Assembly: GCF_000153125.2 (NCBI RefSeq)
Contig: NZ_CM002299.1
Coordinates: 1,178,809 to 1,242,808, forward strand
Length of the DNA stretch: 64,000 nucleotides
Reading direction: 5' to 3'
Origin: Congregibacter litoralis KT71
Lineage (GTDB): Bacteria; Pseudomonadota; Gammaproteobacteria; Pseudomonadales; Halieaceae
A program made the position numbers and the translations under genes. This document shows positions 3,679 to 56,752 of this stretch, piece by piece. Under the pieces are notes generated by a model. It did not search any database and was not told where the DNA came from. It saw only the letters and a list, made by a program, of their open reading frames with translations. How positions within the stretch are numbered: position 1 is the first letter of the stretch; each line of letters opens with the position of its first letter.

Positions 3679-6600
3679 TCACCCCATCAGATAACTGTTC
3701 ACTTCTATGGTGTATCGCAAATAATGAGACTTTAAGTCTTGTATGACTTGGGTGTCTTCTTCAAACCTGAATTGCAGGTATCCCTTTTCCAATTCATCGG
3801 CTGCCGCGCGGATCTCTATGGCGCCCATGTTTGCGCTCATCGATTTTATTGCGTGCGCTACTGTTCGTAGATTTTCCCTGTCTTTGTTTTGAATGCAGGT
3901 TTCTAGCTCCTTGAGTTTCTCAGTGAACTGAGACGAAAAGCCTTCGATCAGTTTTGGTATGAGTTCTTCTGAGTCTACAGAAAGGCGCTTAAAGTTGGTG
4001 AGAACATCGGTATCTAGAACTTCATCTTGAGTCACAAGTGCTTGGTTGATACCTATGTTTTTTTGGGCTGAAGTTGTCGATGAAGCCTCCATTTCGCTCA
4101 GGACTCCAAAGCTCTCAAGGGCTTTACGGAGGTCATGTGTTGTGAATGGTTTGGTGAGCAAACCATTCATCCCTGCATCAAGAGCTCGCTGCTTATCTCC
4201 TTGGTCTCCTCCAGCTGTTAACGCAATGATGGTTGTTCTAGGCAAGCCTCTCTCTTGCTCAATTTTTCGAATTCTCTGTGTGGCCGCGTAACCATCAAGT
4301 ATTGGCATTTGGCAGTCCATGAAGATTAGGTCGTATTTACTTTTTTGAAAAAGATCAACGGCCTCCTCGCCATTGCCTGCTAGCTGAACTTTTGCCCCCA
4401 GGGAATGCAGCATTGTCATTGCGATTTGCTGATTTACCGCGACGTCTTCAACAACGAGTATATTTGTCTTAATGCCGTTGGCTTTATCTTCATCGTTTCC
4501 GATCTGTATAGTGCGCTCACCCGAGGACTCTGTGGCTATGAGTAGTTCTGACTCGGTGAACGGTGGAGAGATGAAGTAGGTGTTGCCCGTTGGCTCGGGA
4601 GTTTTATTGTCGGACCAAAGGACGATAAGCTTTGGTGCAGCAAGGCCATCACAATTTGTAAGACTTTCCCATTGTCTTCTATCTATTAAAAGCCTTTCGG
4701 GCTTTAGTTGCTGGTGTCTAATGCTCTCAATAGAGTCGAACCGCTCTGCAGCATACCCAATAGCAGACAGTTTAGAACTTATTGATTTGAAAATTAGCTC
4801 GTTTTCAGTTACGCAGATAGTTTGCTCTTCACCGCGTTGAGGTCTTTCGGGCTCCGCGTCGATAGCACGGAGCTTGGTTTCGAAGGTGAAAGTCGAGCCG
4901 ACATTGAGCTCAGATGTTACTGAAAGCGAACCATCCATCAATGCTGCGAGTTCTTTGGAGATGGATAACCCTAAACCTGTGCCTCCATATTGGCGAGTGG
5001 TGCTCGTATCGGCTTGAGTGAATACCTCAAAAACGGAGTCCAACTTTTCTTTCGCTATACCAATCCCGTTGTCTTCGACCGCGACCTGATATCTCACGGT
5101 GTTTTCACTAGAGTCTTCGCTAACGGCAGTAGTTGAGCACCGTATTACTACCTTCCCGCCTTTCGTAAACTTAATCGCATTCCCAATCAAATTAAGCAGT
5201 ATTTGGCGAATTTTTCCTACATCGCCATAGACTTTTCTATGTTGACAATCACCCCAGACGATATATACCTCAGTACCGTGCGAGGACGCACTTTGTATGA
5301 GGAGAGTGCAAACGTTATCTATTAGAGAGATCACGTCAAACTCGGAAAAATCAAGTTCTAACTTGTTGGCCTCCATTTTGGAGTAGTCGAGAATCGAGTT
5401 GATGATCGCGAGTAAAGATTCGCCACTATCTCGTGCAGTTTCTGCATAGGACCTTTGTTGCGCGCTAAGTCCCGACTGAATAAGCAGGTCGGTCATACCG
5501 ATCATGCCGTGCATGGGAGTACGAATTTCGTGGCTCATTGCCGCAAGGAATTCGGACTTCGCTCTCGCGGCAGCTTCGGCTTCATTTCTAGCCAACATCA
5601 AGTCGTGAGTACGCTCCTCTACCCTTTCTTCAAGCTCTAGTCGTCTCGCAAGTTCTCTCCTCGATTTGGCTTGTTGCTGCCTAAATATAAATAGAATCAC
5701 GTAGACAATGAGCGCGGCATATGCGGCGAACGCGTACCAGGTTAGCCACCATGGAGACGCAATGTGCAGCGTGAGTTCTCGGTCGTTGTTACTCCATATC
5801 CCACTTGAGTTTGTCGAGCTAAGTCTTAACTTATATGTGCCATAGCCTAAGCCAGATATTGATACGCTGCGTGTTTGGCCTAGGTTGATCCACTCGTTGT
5901 GTATGCCATCTATTCGATACCGGTAATCAATCGTACCGGGCTGTCGATAGTCCAGAGCTGAAAATGATACTGATGCGAATTGATAGTCATAGTCGAGGTA
6001 AATGTCATTTAGATCAGAGTATGGGGTTTCGAAGTAGACTTGCTCGTTGAGTAATTTGAAGCTGGTTATTTGTATTTCCGGTTCATAGTTATCTTCGTAG
6101 TTGATGTTTGAGTCTACAACGTTGAATCCTCCAAAACCTCCAAAAAACAGAGTGCCGTTTTCGCCAGCGTGCGCACTTCCTTGATTGAACTCTCGACCTT
6201 GCAGGCCTGCACTGATGTCGAAACTAATTGACTTCTGTCGAGAGCTGTCAATTTTTGTAAGACCTAAGTTGTGAGCGGCCCAAAGGTTGTCGTCTTCGTC
6301 GATAACTAGACCCAGAATGTCGGAAGTGGGCACACCAACACTCGGCGCAAGTAGCTGAAATCGCGGAAAATCATCTTCAACACTGTCCAAAGATAAGTAG
6401 TTTATGTCGCCTCTAGTTCCGATCCAGAGCCGGCTTTCCTTGTCCTCTGCCAGGGAAAAGACAACGTTACTTGATAGTGTTCTAGTGTCGTCGGGATCAG
6501 ATTTGAACCGCCGGAAAGTGGCAGTTTCTGTGTCAAATAGGTTTAGCCCGTCCTGCGTGCCCACCCAGATCTGCTCGCGCGAGTCGATTAATATCGATAT

Positions 6601-8109
6601 AACCCGGTCATCGCTTATAGTTGTGTCAATCCCACTTTGAGTGGTGAATGATTGAAAAGTCTTTGTACTTTGATCGAAGACGTTTAAGCCGCCGCCATAG
6701 GTGCCAACTAGGATTCGACCATCAGACAAAGCTTCCAACACCGGGACTCCGTTTGCTGACAATGAACCGTCATGGCCATCAGCGGTGAATTGCGTAATCG
6801 TTTTTGAGGCAAGGTCGATCTCAAAAAAGCCAGCGGTATACGTTCCGGCGTATAGCATCGATTCATGTTTCTCGATGCTCATTATTTGATAGTCCCCAAG
6901 CAGATTTAAGATGGGTCTTTGCAACTGCCAGTCATCGCTCGAGTTTTTTGTGGCCTGCAATGAGTTGATTCCCCTTTGCGTCCCAATCCACCAGTTGTTC
7001 TCTTCGTCGGTAAGTATCGAGAATGTAGGGCTCGACGAGAGTCCATCCTCTTCAGTGAACTTCTGAAAAAGAGATCGAGTGCCTTGCGCTAAACCACTGA
7101 AAGTCCCGATCCACAGCATTCCTGATCTGCCCTGCATCAAAGATAAAACAGCGGCACTGGGCAATTGCGTGTTCACTGAGGTTAGCCATGTCGCTCCTGC
7201 GCTTTTGGAATAAACCACTATCCCAGATTCAGTACCAAACCAATGATTGCCGTCAGTATCTCCCATGACGGTCTGAATTTGGTTTGCCGTGTCTGCTTGT
7301 GTTGCGAAATGAAGCGGATGTCTTGAAACACTCTTTCTTTTGATCGCGTAAAGAAATGCCCCTTTTGTTTTTGATGTGACCAAGAGTTCGCCAGATTCAA
7401 GTAACGCCATGTCACTGATGTCAGTGGGAAGAGTAGTCGCGCCTTCAACAATTTCACCGTTCAGACTTACCAGAACACCCGTTTCGGTGTCCATGCGGTA
7501 CACCCCACTGCCATCAACGGCAATAAACAGGGTGCCGTTTTCTGTTTCAACAAACCCCTCAATCCCAGCACTAGGCATCTGATTTGGAAGAAAGTAGTGC
7601 ACGAAAGATTCTTCATTTGGATAAAACCGGCTGAACCCGGAACCGTTTGCATAACCAACCCACAAAGAGCCGTCTCCGCTTTTATAGAGGCTGGAGACCA
7701 TATTTGAGACGGGGTTTTCACTGCTAATCGACGGTAAAGCCTCATAGGAAGTAAAACTAAGGTCGGCTTCATTGAACCTACTGAGCCCGCCTCCGAGCGT
7801 TCCTATCCAGAGCCTTCCCTGGTCATCCTCGGCAATGGTAGTGGTGGCCTGATTATTGATTGAGGTCGGATCAGCGCGATCAGTTTTGAATGCGACGACC
7901 TCTTGGCCATCGAATCTATTTAAACCTTCTTGCGTGAGCAGCCATATAAAACCGTTACTATCTTGGTATATGTCGACTACTGTCTTCTGTGAGAGGTTTT
8001 CAGAGGCTGGAGAAATCTCTATCGCGTACTCGTCCTGTCGAAACGCCGTAGCGTTCAGGCTCACCAAAACACACGTGAGCAAAGTGACGACCGTTAGTAT
8101 CGATTTCAT
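3679..8109 (-). CDS. hybrid sensor histidine kinase (propeller, Y_Y_Y, HisKA, HATPase, REC, Hpt)
   Basis: A protein of 1476 residues with an N-terminal signal-like helix and many periplasmic propeller repeats (GFIWLLTQEGLNRFDG, GRLWIGTLGGGLSRF) to about 690. A Y_Y_Y domain follows (GYGTYKLRLSSTNSSGIWSN), then a membrane helix near 787-809. The cytoplasmic part has the H-box EFLAAMSHEIRTPMHG (His about 860), N-box NLIGNAIKF, and G-boxes DNGIGIA and GGTGLGLSIS. A divergent region near 1095-1195 could be a pseudo-receiver. The true receiver begins near 1215, with Asp about 1265 in FMDCQMP and Lys about 1320. The C-terminal Hpt domain carries AHAIKSMSANMGA (His about 1419). This order supports a phosphorelay His-Asp-His. 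Periplasmic sensors of this build in other bacteria often sense oligosaccharides; the ligand here is unknown. It is first of a two-gene minus-strand unit. Confidence 0.93.
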   Translation of the reverse strand: MKSILTVVTLLTCVLVSLNATAFRQDEYAIEISPASENLSQKTVVDIYQDSNGFIWLLTQEGLNRFDGQEVVAFKTDRADPTSINNQATTTIAEDDQGRLWIGTLGGGLSRFNEADLSFTSYEALPSISSENPVSNMVSSLYKSGDGSLWVGYANGSGFSRFYPNEESFVHYFLPNQMPSAGIEGFVETENGTLFIAVDGSGVYRMDTETGVLVSLNGEIVEGATTLPTDISDMALLESGELLVTSKTKGAFLYAIKRKSVSRHPLHFATQADTANQIQTVMGDTDGNHWFGTESGIVVYSKSAGATWLTSVNTQLPSAAVLSLMQGRSGMLWIGTFSGLAQGTRSLFQKFTEEDGLSSSPTFSILTDEENNWWIGTQRGINSLQATKNSSDDWQLQRPILNLLGDYQIMSIEKHESMLYAGTYTAGFFEIDLASKTITQFTADGHDGSLSANGVPVLEALSDGRILVGTYGGGLNVFDQSTKTFQSFTTQSGIDTTISDDRVISILIDSREQIWVGTQDGLNLFDTETATFRRFKSDPDDTRTLSSNVVFSLAEDKESRLWIGTRGDINYLSLDSVEDDFPRFQLLAPSVGVPTSDILGLVIDEDDNLWAAHNLGLTKIDSSRQKSISFDISAGLQGREFNQGSAHAGENGTLFFGGFGGFNVVDSNINYEDNYEPEIQITSFKLLNEQVYFETPYSDLNDIYLDYDYQFASVSFSALDYRQPGTIDYRYRIDGIHNEWINLGQTRSVSISGLGYGTYKLRLSSTNSSGIWSNNDRELTLHIASPWWLTWYAFAAYAALIVYVILFIFRQQQAKSRRELARRLELEERVEERTHDLMLARNEAEAAARAKSEFLAAMSHEIRTPMHGMIGMTDLLIQSGLSAQQRSYAETARDSGESLLAIINSILDYSKMEANKLELDFSEFDVISLIDNVCTLLIQSASSHGTEVYIVWGDCQHRKVYGDVGKIRQILLNLIGNAIKFTKGGKVVIRCSTTAVSEDSSENTVRYQVAVEDNGIGIAKEKLDSVFEVFTQADTSTTRQYGGTGLGLSISKELAALMDGSLSVTSELNVGSTFTFETKLRAIDAEPERPQRGEEQTICVTENELIFKSISSKLSAIGYAAERFDSIESIRHQQLKPERLLIDRRQWESLTNCDGLAAPKLIVLWSDNKTPEPTGNTYFISPPFTESELLIATESSGERTIQIGNDEDKANGIKTNILVVEDVAVNQQIAMTMLHSLGAKVQLAGNGEEAVDLFQKSKYDLIFMDCQMPILDGYAATQRIRKIEQERGLPRTTIIALTAGGDQGDKQRALDAGMNGLLTKPFTTHDLRKALESFGVLSEMEASSTTSAQKNIGINQALVTQDEVLDTDVLTNFKRLSVDSEELIPKLIEGFSSQFTEKLKELETCIQNKDRENLRTVAHAIKSMSANMGAIEIRAAADELEKGYLQFRFEEDTQVIQDLKSHYLRYTIEVNSYLMG

Positions 8110-8160
8110 TGAGACACTGTTGTTGATGCTTCCGCTCGCATTCTACAGTGATCAGTAAGC

Positions 8161-8202
8161 AAAAAAAGTAAGGGCCAGCCTGCTGTGCACAGGCTGGCCC
8201 TT
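8161..8202 (-). terminator. rho-independent terminator for leftward transcription
   Basis: A 13-bp perfect stem (8170-8182 with 8190-8202) closes a 7-base loop. It is followed on the minus strand by the complement of seven A residues at 8161-8167, a U-run. It points leftward, so it ends transcripts coming from the repeat-protein side and shields the kinase genes. Without the IS element it would lie about 55 bases behind the stop codon of the 9488-10132 gene, a normal distance for that gene's own terminator. Confidence 0.8.
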
Positions 8203-8228
8203 GTCTACGTACGCTTCGGAGCTTTGGC

Positions 8229-8262
8229 TGAATCGCCACCAGTTTGCTAGACACCTTTCAGC
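8229..8262. repeat. left terminal inverted repeat of the IS3 element
   Basis: Thirty-four bases starting TGAATCGCCACCAG are the exact reverse complement of 9424-9457. The next inner base pair no longer matches. The outside flank is GGC. Confidence 0.95.
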
Positions 8263-8291
8263 CATACAAAATGGCTATCAGAGAGGTGTTT

Positions 8292-8570
8292 ATGAGCAAC
8301 AAGCGTTACCCCGAAGAATTCAAGAGAGAAGCCGTTCGCCAGATCACGGATCGCGGCTACAGCGTGGCGGACGTGGCCAGTCGGCTGGGCGTGACGACGC
8401 ACAGTCTGTATGCCTGGGTGAAGAAGTACGGGCCGGCTGCTGAGCAACATCGAGTGGAGGCTGATGATCAGGCCGAGATTCGTCGGCTACAAAAAGAGCT
8501 TAAGCGTGTCACGGAGGAGCGTGACATTCTAAAAAAAGCCGCGGCGTACTTCGCGAGCCAATCCGAGTGA
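8292..8570 (+). CDS. IS3-family transposase OrfA
   Basis: A 92-residue protein, the DNA-binding half of an IS3 transposase. The helix-turn-helix is YPEEFKREAVRQITDRGYSV followed by VASRLGVTTHSLYAWVKKYG. A leucine-zipper-like coil IRRLQKELKRVTEERDILKKA mediates oligomerisation in this family. I chose ATG 8292 because AGAGGTG lies just upstream and MSNKRYPEEFKREA is the usual family N-terminus; an upstream TTG in frame falls inside the terminal repeat. The frame contains A AAA AAA (8531-8537), in the phase needed for -1 slippage into orfB. Confidence 0.93.
   Translation: MSNKRYPEEFKREAVRQITDRGYSVADVASRLGVTTHSLYAWVKKYGPAAEQHRVEADDQAEIRRLQKELKRVTEERDILKKAAAYFASQSE
8531..8537 (+). other. candidate -1 ribosomal frameshift site in IS3 orfA
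   Basis: Seven A residues form X XXY YYZ in the orfA frame (cta aaa aaa gcc). The -1 frame is open from here through VLREPIRV into orfB, so slippage would give an OrfAB fusion, the usual active transposase of IS3 elements. No downstream stimulatory structure was verified. Confidence 0.55.
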
Positions 8571-9439
8571 GGTACGCTTTTATTCAATCCCATCGCCACC
8601 AGTTGCCGGTGCGGCATCTGTGTTCTTTGCTTAACGTTCACCCCAGCGGTTTCTATGCGTGGCGTCGACAGCCGCTATCGGCTCGCGGTTGTGAGGACAA
8701 GCGGCTCTCTGGCCTGATCAAGCAGTTCTGGCTCGAGTCCGGTGCTGTGTATGGCTATCGGAAGATCCATCGTGATTTGCATGAAATAGGCGAGTGTTGC
8801 GGCCCCAACCGTGTCCACCGTCTCATGAAAGACGCTGGAATCAGGGCGCAGGTTGGATATCGCAAGCCACGGCATAAGGTTGGCAAAGCGCATGATGTGA
8901 CGCCTAACGTACTGCAGAGACAGTTTAATCCGGCTGCGCCGAACGAGCGATGGGCGACCGACATCACCCATATTCGGACCCACGAAGGCTGGTTGTACCT
9001 GGCCGTGGTCATCGACTTATTCTCGCGCCGGGTGATTGGCTGGTCGATGCAATCACGGATCACGAGCGATCTGGTTCTAGATGCCTTGTTGATGTCGGTG
9101 TGGCGTCGCAAGCCGGTGAGCAAGGTACTTGTTCATTCGGACCAGGGCAGTCAATACACAAGCTATGACTGGAGCGCGTTTCTACGCGCAAACGGCCTTG
9201 AGGGCAGTATGAGCAGACGCGGCAACTGCCATGACAACGCAGTCGCTGAAAGCTTCTTCCAGCTTCTGAAACGCGAGCGCGTGAAGCGCAAGATATATCC
9301 GACCCGGCAGGATGCCCGGGCCGATATCTTTGACTATATCGAGATGTTCTACAACGTCAGACGCCGGCATGGCTCGAACAGCCTGCTGTCACCTGTAGAC
9401 TACGAACAGCATCACGAAAAACAGCTGAAAGGTGTCTAG
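8567..9439 (+). CDS. IS3-family transposase OrfB (DDE integrase catalytic part)
   Basis: A 290-residue protein starting GTG inside GTGA, which overlaps the orfA stop. An HTH_21-like segment (YGYRKIHRDL) precedes an rve integrase core. Core motifs are NERWATDITHIRT (first Asp), LVHSDQGSQYTS (second Asp) and NCHDNAVAESFFQLLKRE (Glu). The tail FYNVRRRHGSNSLLSPVDYE is the family's usual end. All three acidic residues are present and there is no truncation. The final codons run into the right terminal repeat. Confidence 0.95.
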   Translation: MRYAFIQSHRHQLPVRHLCSLLNVHPSGFYAWRRQPLSARGCEDKRLSGLIKQFWLESGAVYGYRKIHRDLHEIGECCGPNRVHRLMKDAGIRAQVGYRKPRHKVGKAHDVTPNVLQRQFNPAAPNERWATDITHIRTHEGWLYLAVVIDLFSRRVIGWSMQSRITSDLVLDALLMSVWRRKPVSKVLVHSDQGSQYTSYDWSAFLRANGLEGSMSRRGNCHDNAVAESFFQLLKRERVKRKIYPTRQDARADIFDYIEMFYNVRRRHGSNSLLSPVDYEQHHEKQLKGV

Positions 9440-9457
9440 CAAACTGGTGGCGATTCA
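9424..9457. repeat. right terminal inverted repeat of the IS3 element
   Basis: An exact 34-base inverse copy of 8229-8262, ending ...GGCGATTCA. It overlaps the last codons of orfB. The outer flank is GGC. Confidence 0.95.
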
Positions 9458-9487
9458 GGCAGGCCGCCGCGAAAGTAGTTAAGAGGT

Positions 9488-10132
9488 TTATCTAATGCCC
9501 CAGATGTAACCCTTTTGGTCAGCTGCGTTACGGATGCCCCAAATGTAGCCCTGCTGGTCAGCGGCGTTACGGATCCCCCAGATGTAGCCCTGCTGGTCAG
9601 CTGCGTTACGGATGCCCCAAATGTAGCCCTGCTGGTCAGCGGCGTTACGGATCCCCCAGATGTAGCCCTGCTGGTCAGCGGCGTTGCGGATGCCCCAGAT
9701 GTAGCCCTTCTGATCAGCTGCGTTACGGATGCCCCAAATGTAGCCCTGCTGGTCAGCGGCGTTACGGATGCCCCAAATGTAGCCCTGCTGGTCAGCGGCG
9801 TTGCGGATGCCCCAAATGTAGCCCTGTGGCTCGCTCACCGCAGAGCCCGAGTAGTCCACCGATGCCATGGCCGATTCGGCTTGAGATGCTTCCCATCGAA
9901 ACCCAGGGGCGTTTACTTCTGATGCGCGCACCACTTTCGCGCTTGTGTAAGGAGTAGCCTGATCCCATATGAATCCAGACTTGACGACCTGTGTTGACGC
10001 GAGCTGTTTCGCAACAACTTGCTGTACGGTTACGCCATGCTTCACAAACTCTTCCGCACCAGCTGTTGTTCCCACCGCTGTTGCGAGACTGAATGTCGCA
10101 ATTGATAAAGCTGCTTTGATTGTTGCTTTCAT
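9488..10132 (-). CDS. exported tandem-repeat protein (nine GYIWGIRNAADQQ units), unknown function
   Basis: I do not recognise this 214-residue protein. Residues 1-26 look like a Sec signal peptide ending TTAGA before EEF. Residues 104-214 are nine copies of a 13-residue unit, G-Y-I-W-G-I-R-N-A-A-D-Q-(Q/K), starting at 104, 117, 130 and so on to 208. The last copy stops directly after GYIWGIR. Two diverged half-motifs, SGFIWDQ (52-58) and PGFRWEA (77-83), suggest the array grew from an older G-aromatic-x-W motif. No cysteine is present. Q, N, A and G spacing loosely recalls curlin repeats, but the period is too short for CsgA. Possible roles are a secreted matrix or amyloid-like protein, or a precursor cut into short peptides. 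The gene lies 145 bases behind a secreted subtilase on the same strand, and its own terminator now lies beyond an IS element. Confidence 0.85.
   Translation of the reverse strand: MKATIKAALSIATFSLATAVGTTAGAEEFVKHGVTVQQVVAKQLASTQVVKSGFIWDQATPYTSAKVVRASEVNAPGFRWEASQAESAMASVDYSGSAVSEPQGYIWGIRNAADQQGYIWGIRNAADQQGYIWGIRNAADQKGYIWGIRNAADQQGYIWGIRNAADQQGYIWGIRNAADQQGYIWGIRNAADQQGYIWGIRNAADQKGYIWGIR
9491..9826 (-). repeat. 39-bp coding tandem repeat, about 8.6 copies
   Basis: DNA of the GYIWGIRNAADQQ array. Copies are nearly identical, differing at a few third positions and at one Gln/Lys codon. Variants ending in ATCCCCCAGATG and in ATGCCCCAAATG (plus strand) partly alternate, which suggests expansion by duplicating pairs of units. 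The array is prone to copy-number change by slippage. Confidence 0.95.
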
Positions 10133-10259: not shown

Positions 10260-10277
10260 GTACCCCGTTTGGGGTAC
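10260..10277. promoter_or_regulatory. perfect dyad GTACCCC-GTTT-GGGGTAC behind the subtilase stop
   Basis: A 7-bp stem with a 4-base loop adjoins the subtilase stop codon (complement of 10278-10280). On the minus strand it is not followed by a U-run, so it may be an operator, an mRNA 3' stabiliser or a processing site between the subtilase and the repeat-protein gene rather than a terminator. Confidence 0.4.
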
Positions 10278-12298: not shown

Positions 12299-14109
12299 TT
12301 ATTCCTTGGACTTCCGCACTCGTGCAATCGTCTCAGAATAATCCTGACGAATGGCGTTGGGCACATCCTCGGGGTACAGGGGGCGGGCAAAGTAAAAACC
12401 CTGCATCAGATCAACACCGCGCTCCGCCAGATAGGCGAGCTGCTCTTCTGTTTCGATGCCTTCAGCGATAGAGCGCATGTTCAGCGTTTTCGCCAGGGCA
12501 ATGATTGCGTCCACGATGGCCGCGCCATCGGCGCTGTTCATGTCAGCGACAAAGCTTTGATCTATTTTAAGTGTGTTGATGGGAAATCGTCTTAAGTAGC
12601 TCAGGGACGAGTAACCCGTACCAAAATCGTCCACCGCAAGATCCAGCCCGAGAGATTTCAACTGCGACAGTTTCAGAATGTTGCTCTCGCCATCGGTCAT
12701 GATGGCGCTCTCCGTAAGCTCTAATTCCAGACGTTGAGGGTCCAGCCCGGAGCGGGACAGAAAACCCTTAACGTAGTGCAGGAGGTCGGGCTGATTGAAC
12801 TGCAGGGGTGAGATATTCACGCACACGCGAAAGCTGGCCAATCCGATGGAGTCCCAGTAAACGCAATGCCGCGCTACCTCTTTGAGTACCCACTCGCCGA
12901 GCTCGATAATCTGGCCCGTGCTTTCAGCCACGGGAATAAAGTCCGCAGGCGAGATCATGCCGCGCTCAGGATGTTTCCATCGGACCAGTGCCTCAAGGCT
13001 CACTACGGCTCCCGTCAAAGTTTCTACCTGGGGCTGGTAGCGCAGCTCGAGCTGATTCGTGCGCATGGCCTCCCGGAGATCTTCCTCCAGTTTGAGGTGC
13101 TCCACGGAGCGCGCGTTCATTTCTTCGTTGTAGAACCGGAAGCATGCCCGGCCATCGGCCTTTGCCGCGTACATGGCGGTGTCCGCGTTGCGCACCAGGC
13201 TGTCGGCGTCGAGGCCATCCTGTGGATACATGGCGATACCGATACTGGGCGTGACTACGGGGTTGTGCGTTTGCAGCGCAATGGGCTCGGAGAGCGTCTT
13301 CATAATCCGCAGGGCAATACGCTCAACGTCGTCGGTGTGCTGCACATCGGCAAGGACCACGGTAAATTCATCGCCGCCCAGGCGTGCTATTTCGGTGTTG
13401 CCGTCGTGCTCCTGCTCGTCTTCGGCACTGGATTCCGTGTAATAGCTGATGGCGTCATCTTCTCTCAGCTCATTGATCAGCCGCTTGGAGATTCACCAAC
13501 AGCGATCACGCGACGTGTCCGATGGAGTCATAATGCGCTGAAGTATCCAGATCGATAACAGAAGGGCCGAGAAGGTGTTCAAACGCTGGGAGCGCTGAGG
13601 ATGCGATTGAGCTGTTCGTTAAAGCTGCGACGATTGGGTAGGCTGGTGAGAGGATCAAAATAAGCGAGGTAACGGAGGCGATCCTCCTGGCGCTTGAGGC
13701 TGTTAAAGGCGTTGCTCGCGCGGAGCATGTACTGAACATCGCGCCCCAGCAGGGACCAGTTTACCGGCTTGGTTTTGTACTGGGTTGCGCCCGCTTCAAA
13801 GCCGTCGTCAATGGATTGCCGGTCGTCAGAGCCGGTAACAATCATGATGGGGACGCTTTCCCCCTGGGGCATAGCGCGGATCCGCTGGCACACTTCCAGG
13901 CCCGTCATGCCGGGCATTTCTACATCGAGAAACACCAGGTCCGGGCGCTCGCGGACAAAAGCTTCCAGTGCTTCGTGACCGTCCGCGGCTTCAATCACAA
14001 TCATGCCCTCAGACTCAAGGCATTGACGGCTCAGCAAACGTACGTTCATGTCGTCGTCAGCGACAAGAATCGTAGCACGTTGCCCCGGCTGGGAAACCTC
14101 GTTGGACAT
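12299..14109 (-). pseudogene. REC-GGDEF-EAL response regulator, GGDEF part broken by frameshifts
   Basis: Three minus-strand frames together encode one regulator. 14109 to about 13590 encodes a receiver (VADDDMNV, phospho-Asp in LVFLDVEMPG, Lys in TKPVNW) and the GGDEF start DPLTSLPNRRSF, then TGA. About 13600-13506, in a second frame, gives VIDLD...DSIGHVA, the expected FKxxND/GH segment. From about 13490, in a third frame, ISKRLINEL...ARLGGDEFTVVLADV and a full EAL domain follow (LEALVRWKHPERG, NISPLQF, ELTES, VDDFGTGYSSL, KIDQSF, EGIET) to 12299. At least two shifts are needed within about 100 bases. Either the diguanylate cyclase half is dead or the source sequence has local errors. The EAL segment could still be translated from GTG 13360 (12299-13360, 353 residues). 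Confidence 0.85.
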
Positions 14110-15332: not shown

Positions 15333-15349
15333 AAGGCTACCGGTCTTCT

Positions 15350-15386
15350 CGTCGTTTCGTCGTTTCGTCGTTTCGTCGTTTCGTCG
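15350..15386. repeat. 8-bp tandem repeat (CGTCGTTT) about 4.6 copies
   Basis: Perfect head-to-tail copies of CGTCGTTT lie in the 137-base gap between the convergent nadA and M48 genes. It is not part of any reading frame I support and has no terminator-like fold. Confidence 0.95.
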
Positions 15387-33123: not shown

Positions 33124-33195
33124 ACGGCCTAAGCCGAATGAGCCACCTAAGCCAACTAGACCACATAGGCCACGTAGGCCACGTAGGCCACGATA
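33124..33195. repeat. 9-bp tandem repeat (GCCACGTAG), eight units, decaying to the left
   Basis: Units in phase from 33124: ACGGCCTAA, GCCGAATGA, GCCACCTAA, GCCAACTAG, ACCACATAG, GCCACGTAG, GCCACGTAG, GCCACGATA. It starts at the stop of the MBL gene and ends before the ribosome site of the acyl-CoA synthetase. No terminator fold is seen. Confidence 0.85.
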
Positions 33196-33244
33196 AGCCA
33201 CACCCCCATAACCCTAAAAACAGACTTTTTGAAAGGAGTTTTCA

Positions 33245-40863: not shown

Positions 40864-40866
40864 CTG

Positions 40867-40937
40867 CAGACAGGCAGACAGGCTGACAGGCAGACAGGCA
40901 GACAGGCAGACAGGCAGACAGGCAGATAGGCAGATAG
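40867..40937. repeat. 8-bp tandem repeat (CAGACAGG), about nine copies
   Basis: Nine units in phase from 40867, seven of them perfect or with one change; the last two read CAGATAGG and CAGATAG. It lies 4 bases after the gspK stop and about 105 bases before gspL, in the only large gap within the K-to-D half of the secretion operon. Confidence 0.95.
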
Positions 40938-56534: not shown

Positions 56535-56695
56535 AATGGGGCTATATCGCTGAGCGCACCGCTTATCGTAAAATTCGAGGATACCAGCCTGAGGTTTTGT
56601 TCAACAGAACCTGATTGTGCAGCCTGACTAAACAGGTCGAGCATTTCAGCGCATGGGACTTGCTGACACGGACAACACATTTTTTATCTGGGCAT

Positions 56696-56746
56696 CCGAC
56701 CTTTCTGGACGTCCGACTTACCTGGACCTCCGACTTATCTGGACCT
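56696..56746. repeat. 17-bp direct repeat, three tandem copies before a start codon
   Basis: Copies at 56696-56712, 56713-56729 and 56730-56746 follow the pattern CCGACTTAYCTGGACCT, the first being more diverged. The array ends 6 bases before ATG 56753, so it covers the ribosome-binding region. The period is not a multiple of three, so coding use is unlikely. Confidence 0.9.
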
Positions 56747-56752
56747 CCTAGC

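Follow-up and report, generated by a model that had tools for sequence, protein, structure and literature searches.

The repeat gene of Congregibacter litoralis KT71 belongs to a family of Halieaceae genes that are clustered with a subtilase, beta-propeller sensors and a c-di-GMP regulator. The units of its array are constrained, the gene is exchanged together with that of the neighbouring hybrid histidine kinase HK1, and aromatic arrays are fused to subtilases elsewhere. These features suggest that the repeat gene might encode the exported precursor of a polymorphic peptide ligand, which would be released by the protease and matched by the propeller receptor HK1; judged from sequence, this reading is given a probability of about 0.5. 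We infer export, cleavage by the subtilase, propeller sensing and a c-di-GMP output from the same context. The window is the whole stretch of 64,000 nucleotides that was analysed (contig NZ_CM002299.1, positions 1,178,809 to 1,242,808).

The repeat gene and its relatives

The ORF, the tandem repeat and the Trp spacing all confirmed the array (Table 1). Tandem Repeats Finder placed a 39-bp array at 9495-9826 (8.5 copies, 91% matches), and its score of 552 was the highest among the 10 rows for the window. The first-pass annotation had described nine 13-residue units. Nine GYIWGIR heptads are present, with Trp at residues 107, 120, ... 211; the first stands as a heptad and is followed by eight full NAADQ[Q/K]GYIWGIR 13-mers, which corrects the number of complete units to eight. 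Its other structural claims were borne out. The stop codon immediately follows the last Arg of the protein, so that the array ends exactly after GYIWGIR; two diverged motifs, SGFIWD (W56) and PGFRWE (W80), lie N-terminal of the array; and residues 1-26, judged by eye, form a putative, signal-peptide-like N terminus. Other tandem repeats of the window are located at 15349-15386, (TCGTCGTT)4.8; 33141-33202, a 9/18/27-nt array; 40866-40934, (GCAGACAG)8.6; and 56684-56748, a 17-nt array of 3.8 copies.

The unit had been said to belong to no described family, and this stood as far as the databases were searched. The repeat protein has no Pfam match above the cut-off (best E 0.057), no NCBIfam match up to E 0.01 and no PADLOC match, and nothing in the window scored high enough to pass the gathering threshold of an Rfam family. 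In the literature covered, mostly titles and the starts of abstracts, no description of the repeat protein or of the Trp-tail subtilases was found. The AlphaFold model of the repeat protein was uninformative (pLDDT 51); at this low confidence, it stacks short strands at WGIR.

Of 140 Halieaceae genomes, 67 were matched by the repeat profile. When genomes were drawn evenly across the order, it matched 14 of 341, all 14 of them in Halieaceae, and no repeat gene was found in the other families sampled. The single-protein query matched 24 of 58 genomes (its own included), all from one family, and none of the 21 genomes outside this family. The repeat-protein profile matches a single place in the 4.35-Mb, one-contig genome of the window. 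Searched with the profile, a set of 5.8 billion proteins yielded 44 matches to the repeat protein. None of these carries a Pfam domain, and those that have a name are annotated as "hypothetical protein"; a single-sequence search matched only the repeat protein itself, a result that therefore reflects the limit of word-based searching. The profile search that had been proposed with the annotation thus returned homologues, and no Pfam domain covers their repeats.

The relatives inspected begin with a stretch that resembles a signal peptide; a short variable leader with single [GS]Y.W-like motifs follows, and then comes the array. Across the 47 genomes with 13-residue units, 41 different units were found. 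Trp10 of the unit is invariant (47/47) and Gln5 is shared by 45/47; position 9 is K or R in 46 genomes, the window being the exception with I. Units of 12 residues occur in two genomes, and the copy number of the array ranges from 2 to 21 among the relatives. Two unit alleles are NVADQAGYRWGIR and SYADQAGYKWGFR.

The units are under purifying selection. The pN/pS among units was below 1 in 54/54 arrays (highest 0.96, median 0.255), with a median pS of 0.47 and a median pN of 0.11; the arrays are those of the named loci and of the window. Incomplete ones were counted, as were the diverged first unit and the MAG locus L104, in which the leader is read in another frame. The window array has a pS of 0.40 and a pN of 0.075. 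The annotation had explained the purity of the array by recent expansion or by constraint. Constraint is retained, and recent expansion is ruled out by the many synonymous and few amino-acid differences.

The array ends exactly three residues after its last Trp in 43 of 45 complete arrays. The exceptions are L061, with one Trp lost inside the array, and L102, with a six-residue tail; outside these 45, the G035 protein has a short different tail. Arrays do not always end in Arg (e.g. KWRIN, KRWGRG); the final residue is N, G, S, K or another one in some species. No universal cut site is therefore evident, and a cut after Arg in every unit was rejected as a general rule.

Gene cluster and co-exchange of the repeat gene with HK1

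The usual gene order in the relatives is RGE - subtilase - repeat gene - HK1 - HK2, where RGE is the REC-GGDEF-EAL regulator, which is one ORF of about 600 aa in these genomes. The corresponding features of the window are listed in Table 1.

Table 1. Features of the repeat-gene locus, in window coordinates
Feature	Position	Strand	Remarks
HK2, second propeller protein, 1021 aa	606..3671	minus	Reg_prop, Y_Y_Y (Pfam), diverged C terminus
HK1, hybrid histidine kinase, 1476 aa	3679..8109	minus	Reg_prop propeller, Y_Y_Y, HisKA, HATPase, REC, Hpt (Pfam)
Exchanged allelic cassette (repeat gene and HK1)	3679..10132	minus	Ends inferred from relatives; IS inside
IS3-type element	8225..9461	plus	38-nt terminal inverted repeats, two ORFs
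Repeat protein gene	9488..10132	minus	214 aa, ATG start; tandem GYIWGIRNAADQ[Q/K] units
Array	9491..9823	minus	Heptad GYIWGIR and eight complete 13-mers, up to the stop codon
Palindrome TACCCC-N4-GGGGTA (TACCCCAAACGGGGTA)	10261..10276		Directly after the subtilase stop
S8 subtilase, 671 aa	10278..12293 (about)	minus	Pfam PF00082, E 6.9e-42
REC-GGDEF-EAL regulator, second piece (end of GGDEF and EAL)	12299..13360	minus	ORF list, Pfam
REC-GGDEF-EAL regulator, first piece (REC and start of GGDEF)	13579..14109	minus	ORF list, Pfam

All 20 loci of relatives that were examined have the subtilase, as does the window; in L047 it is divided between two ORFs. Across the family, 85 of 140 genomes have it. 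Its catalytic Asp/His/Ser is intact, with D270, H311 and S509 invariant in 24 sequences. The predicted structure has the subtilisin fold, the model confirming the fold only. An export signal and a propeptide-like region were recognized by eye. A conserved R.WGV[KG]AH.ER-like (RRWGV.AH.ER-like) motif in the subtilase tail resembles one repeat unit ([KR]WG[IV][RK]), and is possibly a relic of a fused array or a pseudo-substrate.

The HK1 profile matches 4a2l/4a2m and 3v9f by sequence. With a strict cut-off, HK1-profile matches were found in 71 of 140 genomes, some of them partial or other propeller kinases. All 67 repeat-positive genomes have the subtilase, and 57 of them have an HK1 match; the 10 genomes without an HK1 match are assemblies of 130 or more contigs. 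An HK1-profile match occurred without a repeat-gene match in 14 genomes. In G008, G142, G144, G152 and G154, full-length HK1 and the repeat gene are on different contigs, and in some g6 loci (L048, L087, L089, L094, L098, L099) the two genes are not adjacent. Several Luminiphilus-type loci (L049, L102, L104, L107) show no HK2 after HK1. G087 has the subtilase and HK1 despite lacking the array; a 108-aa exported-looking protein with a single FQWG motif takes the place of the repeat gene. At E 1e-5, the Y_Y_Y genes of the window genome are both in this locus.

The palindrome TACCCCAAACGGGGTA is located 127 nt upstream of the repeat-gene start codon. Similar palindromes lie 129-147 nt before the repeat-gene start in L051, L052, L053, L078 and L112, and looser ACCC-N4-GGGT forms are further off in some other loci. 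TACCCC-N4-GGGGTA is unique in the genome, which chance alone could give, and the leader folds well (z -5.8). The palindrome is possibly an operator or an RNA hairpin.

The IS3-type element, which has 13 copies in the genome with 97-100% identity, is inserted between the repeat gene and HK1 and is not part of the system. The RGE regulator is split into two ORFs here; its span of 1811 nt (12299-14109) is no multiple of three, which suggests a frameshift or a sequencing error. Because of the IS insertion and the split regulator, the system may be rewired or decaying in this strain. The array itself is intact and constrained.

The repeat gene is replaced jointly with HK1, the two forming an allelic cassette, and the protease and the regulator stay. 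Between the window and NOR5-3, the subtilase is 73% identical, the HK1 sensor 25% and the kinase core 47%; between NOR5-3 and Co_bin.81, these values are 58%, 43% and 63%, respectively. Trees of 47 genomes were built with FastTree (local support). Under a unit-type rule that was chosen after seeing the tree, G[YF][RI]WGIR marks one HK1 clade (support 100), with 9/9 genomes inside and 0/38 outside. The same nine genomes are scattered in the subtilase tree. The place of the window and of two g24 rows in the HK1 tree is unsure because of long branches. The unit type changes at least 8 times in the subtilase tree, and seven of seven independent pairs on its well-supported branches agree (sign test p 0.016), as do six of six independent pairs in the RGE tree (p 0.031).

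A nearest-genome test was made without chosen types, on genomes that are not independent. The HK1-nearest and the subtilase-nearest genome differ in 18 of 46 genomes, and the unit is closer to the HK1-nearest genome in 13 of these and to the subtilase-nearest in 3, with 2 ties (p 0.021). Against the RGE-nearest genomes, the unit is closer to the HK1-nearest by 14 to 9, with 1 tie (p 0.40, not significant). Partial Mantel results were mixed, depended on the subset, are loose under shared ancestry and were not relied on: for n 46, the unit-subtilase r is 0.41 (p 0.0003) and the unit-HK1 sensor r is 0.05 (p 0.29); without Luminiphilus, g24 and g6 (n 31), the sensor gives 0.25 (p 0.005) and the subtilase 0.12 (p 0.14). 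A link of the unit to both the subtilase and the sensor would fit a protease substrate that is also a sensor ligand, and is not proof of it. Since the repeat gene and HK1 are mostly neighbours, linkage alone can carry both together. In g6, a change of unit was not accompanied by an evident switch of HK1.

The end of the exchange at the repeat gene is best seen in close pairs. Over 2116 nt of the RGE region, G065 and G068 have 99.3% identity. Their subtilases are 77-98% identical per 60-nt window, and the three windows that immediately precede the repeat gene have 90-95%; identity is 72% in the window over the repeat-gene start, and then 34-72%. These two genomes have different units, the N-terminal parts of their repeat proteins are 31% identical, and HK1 is 19-62% identical per window. 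In G066/G069, identity drops from 86% to 35% near the same place. The distant switch pairs G065/G029, G158/G159 and G158/G017 have no sharp end. Same-type pairs also fall somewhat at the repeat-gene start, yet stay at 55-86% over the first 360 nt of the gene (G029/G063 55-80%, G073/G075 70-86%, G017/G159 62-82%); their leader is at 44-80%, and most of their HK1 windows are likewise higher. The same-type pair G068/G029 is 50-63% identical in the repeat gene, little above the switch pairs.

The right end of the cassette may lie inside HK2, near window position 1571. Within HK2, identity steps up at about residue 700; Y_Y_Y begins nearby, at residue 693 of the window's HK2. The mean identities before and after the step are 20 and 64% for the window and NOR5-3, 26 and 73% for G065/G029, and 21-30 and 52-57% for a further four switch pairs. 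Three same-type pairs have 46-54% before the step and 57-74% after it, the second range being based on one to six windows. In pairs that share both the unit and the HK1 type (mean 32% for G065/G066, 34% for G013/G066), HK2 is at 32-34% and then at 50-52%, and HK2 of G001/G002 is low throughout (26 and 31%). The HK2 propellers thus differ even at shared type, so the HK2 propeller is replaced or fast-evolving and does not follow the type. The proposal that HK2 belongs to the cassette as a type-matched component, with recombination ending behind the propeller, is weakened by the identity of only 32-34% between HK2 propellers at shared type.

Aromatic arrays fused to subtilases

In the window, the array is in a separate gene; the tail of the subtilase contains a single WGV-type motif and is free of arrays. 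In another member of the Halieaceae, G009 (L148, 8694-11675), the subtilase carries 56 copies of GNYWNA in its own tail, and the repeat profile found no separate repeat gene. Further fused tails consist of SYFFND (L149, L150; without Trp), GTMWNN (L117, L118), GYLWNN (L159), DAYLWF (L160) and GDPWGGGY (L158, three spaced copies). The fused tails of family f185 consist of GGLIWKNSVNVD, DAVIWRLNFET (two loci), EAFMWD and EGVVWNNERAQPSNPVA (two copies). Among the best 120 of at least 1407 matches below 1e-60, 92 subtilases have a strictly periodic tail; Trp is present in 92/92 of these tail units, mostly as GY[LTVIA]W plus two. Fifteen of the other 28 were inspected, and all have G..W-like motifs. 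Many GYxW-tail S8 proteases (P0045-P0164) end in a motif like SIN.WV.QE, which is a possible sorting or processing signal.

The fused-tail subtilases are annotated as "serine protease AprX" or "S8 family peptidase". Their S8 domain is related to that of the window, with 44-46% identity; the L149 and P0115 subtilases as queries match the window subtilase at 46% and 44%, respectively. They share a G-Y-x-W core (GYLWNN, GYTWSN and GYIWSN, compared with GYIWGIR in the window) and, in the gammaproteobacterial loci judged, the adjoining propeller sensor. However, their array lies inside the protease, whereas that of the window forms a separate protein, predicted to be exported, with a 13-residue unit.

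In all 12 of the other gammaproteobacterial loci that offer enough context, the subtilase carries a fused aromatic array, which contains Trp in ten of them. The loci judged were L117, L118, L148-L150, L158, L160 and L211-L215, L159 being left out at a contig end; they are not all independent, since L117/L118 and L149/L150 are close pairs and five come from one family. A protein with Reg_prop and Y_Y_Y (Pfam) adjoins the subtilase in all twelve, and a kinase, GGDEF or GGDEF-EAL output is present where the record reaches. The genomes of ten of the twelve loci, and that of the window, have only 1-5 Y_Y_Y genes each (E 1e-5), and in G489 and G531 the sole Y_Y_Y gene adjoins the subtilase. It is very unlikely that the subtilase and the propeller sensor are linked by chance.

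Behind the actinobacterial GxxW- or Trp-tail subtilases (L120, L122, L124, L129) lie genes for a GAF/PAS kinase, a GAF-GGDEF-EAL protein or a SpoIIE-type protein, and no propeller was found next to them. A plasmid search with an actinobacterial Trp-tail subtilase gave no match. The link between protease and signalling may reach beyond the Proteobacteria.

Functional readings and comparison with known systems

As a peptide precursor, the repeat protein would be exported, as its N terminus suggests, and the co-encoded exported subtilase would cut the array into copies of the unit or release the array. Such cleavage is suggested by the constant neighbourhood and by the proteases of this kind to which aromatic arrays are fused. 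The unit would be recognized by the periplasmic beta-propeller of HK1, with which its gene is co-exchanged, and HK2 may take part in recognition. HK1 would act by phosphotransfer on the conserved regulator, which has the REC, GGDEF and EAL domains, and hence on c-di-GMP. The outcome might be self-recognition or a density signal that controls c-di-GMP behaviour such as aggregation. A wider proposal is tentative and stands somewhat below even odds: the locus would represent an undescribed Gram-negative peptide-pheromone system, in which the subtilase frees a Trp-centred peptide in many copies from the tandem array, allele-specific propellers set c-di-GMP, and the cassette is swapped between species. 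The same odds apply to this proposal jointly with the mode of release, which would be in trans in Halieaceae and in cis in other Gammaproteobacteria.

The annotation had offered two functional readings, an amyloid-like or matrix protein and a precursor of short peptides. The context and the co-exchange with HK1 favour the precursor; for the amyloid or matrix protein, the structural model was uninformative. It is rather unlikely that the product is a surface or matrix protein, whose array stays intact and self-associates (amyloid-like or mediated by Trp/Gly), is matured or shed by the subtilase, and is regulated by the sensors and the c-di-GMP enzymes. Several features would suit such a protein: the Gly/Gln/Asn content and aromatic spacing, the arrays that end with a complete unit, the near identity of units, which suits self-stacking, the short strands modelled at WGIR, and the tracking of the subtilase rather than the sensor by the unit over all genomes. 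Congregibacter forms aggregates, according to a passage in PMC2654016. The model, however, has a pLDDT of 51, and relatives differ in copy number (2-21) and in the length of the unit (12 or 13). A matrix function alone also leaves unexplained why the kinase is exchanged with the array, and the protease and the c-di-GMP regulator are not.

The same co-exchange would be seen if the uncut array were displayed on cells or vesicles and bound by the propellers of sister cells, with the subtilase removing the array. The fused arrays, which remain part of an exported enzyme in other lineages, are consistent with such contact-dependent self-recognition. In a hybrid kinase of the HK1 layout, however, the propeller is expected in the periplasm, where it should be out of reach of a large displayed protein, and we consider this explanation improbable. 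A slightly lower probability still is given to sensors that detect oligosaccharides, with the Trp array as a carbohydrate-binding or adhesive part and the cassette as a substrate-specific set. Trp is common in sugar binding, known propeller sensors of the HK1 type are associated with sugars, and Bacteroides hybrid kinases of the HK1 fold detect oligosaccharides; the profile matches of HK1 to 4a2l/4a2m and 3v9f point the same way. However, no polysaccharide lyases, glycosidases or SusCD-like genes were found among the part of the neighbours that was scanned with Pfam.

Peptide signals with exchangeable receptor specificity are textbook knowledge in Gram-positive bacteria and unexpected in Gram-negative bacteria. 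If the peptide-ligand reading is true, members of the marine family Halieaceae (OM60/NOR5) communicate through ribosomal peptides, it becomes possible to test which class of ligand the Reg_prop/Y_Y_Y sensor fold has in this lineage, and many unexplained Trp-repeat subtilases gain a role. Natural allele pairs with nearly identical flanks and a different cassette exist, such as G065 and G068.

HK1 shares Reg_prop, Y_Y_Y, HisKA, HATPase and REC with the Bacteroides hybrid two-component sensors (HTCS, 4a2l-type). Unlike these, it ends in Hpt, has no AraC-type DNA-binding domain, and lies in a cluster with protease, repeat and c-di-GMP genes. The repeat protein resembles curli CsgA/CsgB as an exported tandem-repeat protein that ends with a repeat and in the Q-x-G pattern, which is known from curli; no curlin repeat domain was matched in Pfam up to E 1, and no curli secretion genes were found among the neighbours scanned. 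The cyanobactin PatA-type protease model (PatA/PatE; TIGR03895) gave 35.5 bits, below its cut-off of 421.05.

Among the closest parallels is the comQXPA or agr type of locus, in which precursor and receptor are adjacent and co-polymorphic and the rest is conserved. The same arrangement was found here, with mixed results in the distance tests. Parts of PMC6334282 describe comQ, comX and the 5' end of comP as the variable part of the pheromone locus of B. subtilis, and the precursor gene and the sensor part of the receptor as poorly conserved among comQXPA pherotypes, with the rest conserved. The repeat gene and HK1 behave alike. No homologous part of comQXPA or agr was found in the window system, and no Pfam or NCBIfam match to a ComX/AgrD-like precursor or a ComQ/AgrB-like enzyme was found in the repeat protein or the scanned neighbours. 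The window system differs from comQXPA in its tandem-unit precursor, subtilase, beta-propeller sensors, c-di-GMP output and Gram-negative host; moreover, the whole of HK1 differs between alleles, and a step inside a gene is seen only in HK2. The parallel of the repeat gene and HK1 to the variable part of comQXPA is the strongest reason for the suggestion that they might be a ligand and its receptor.
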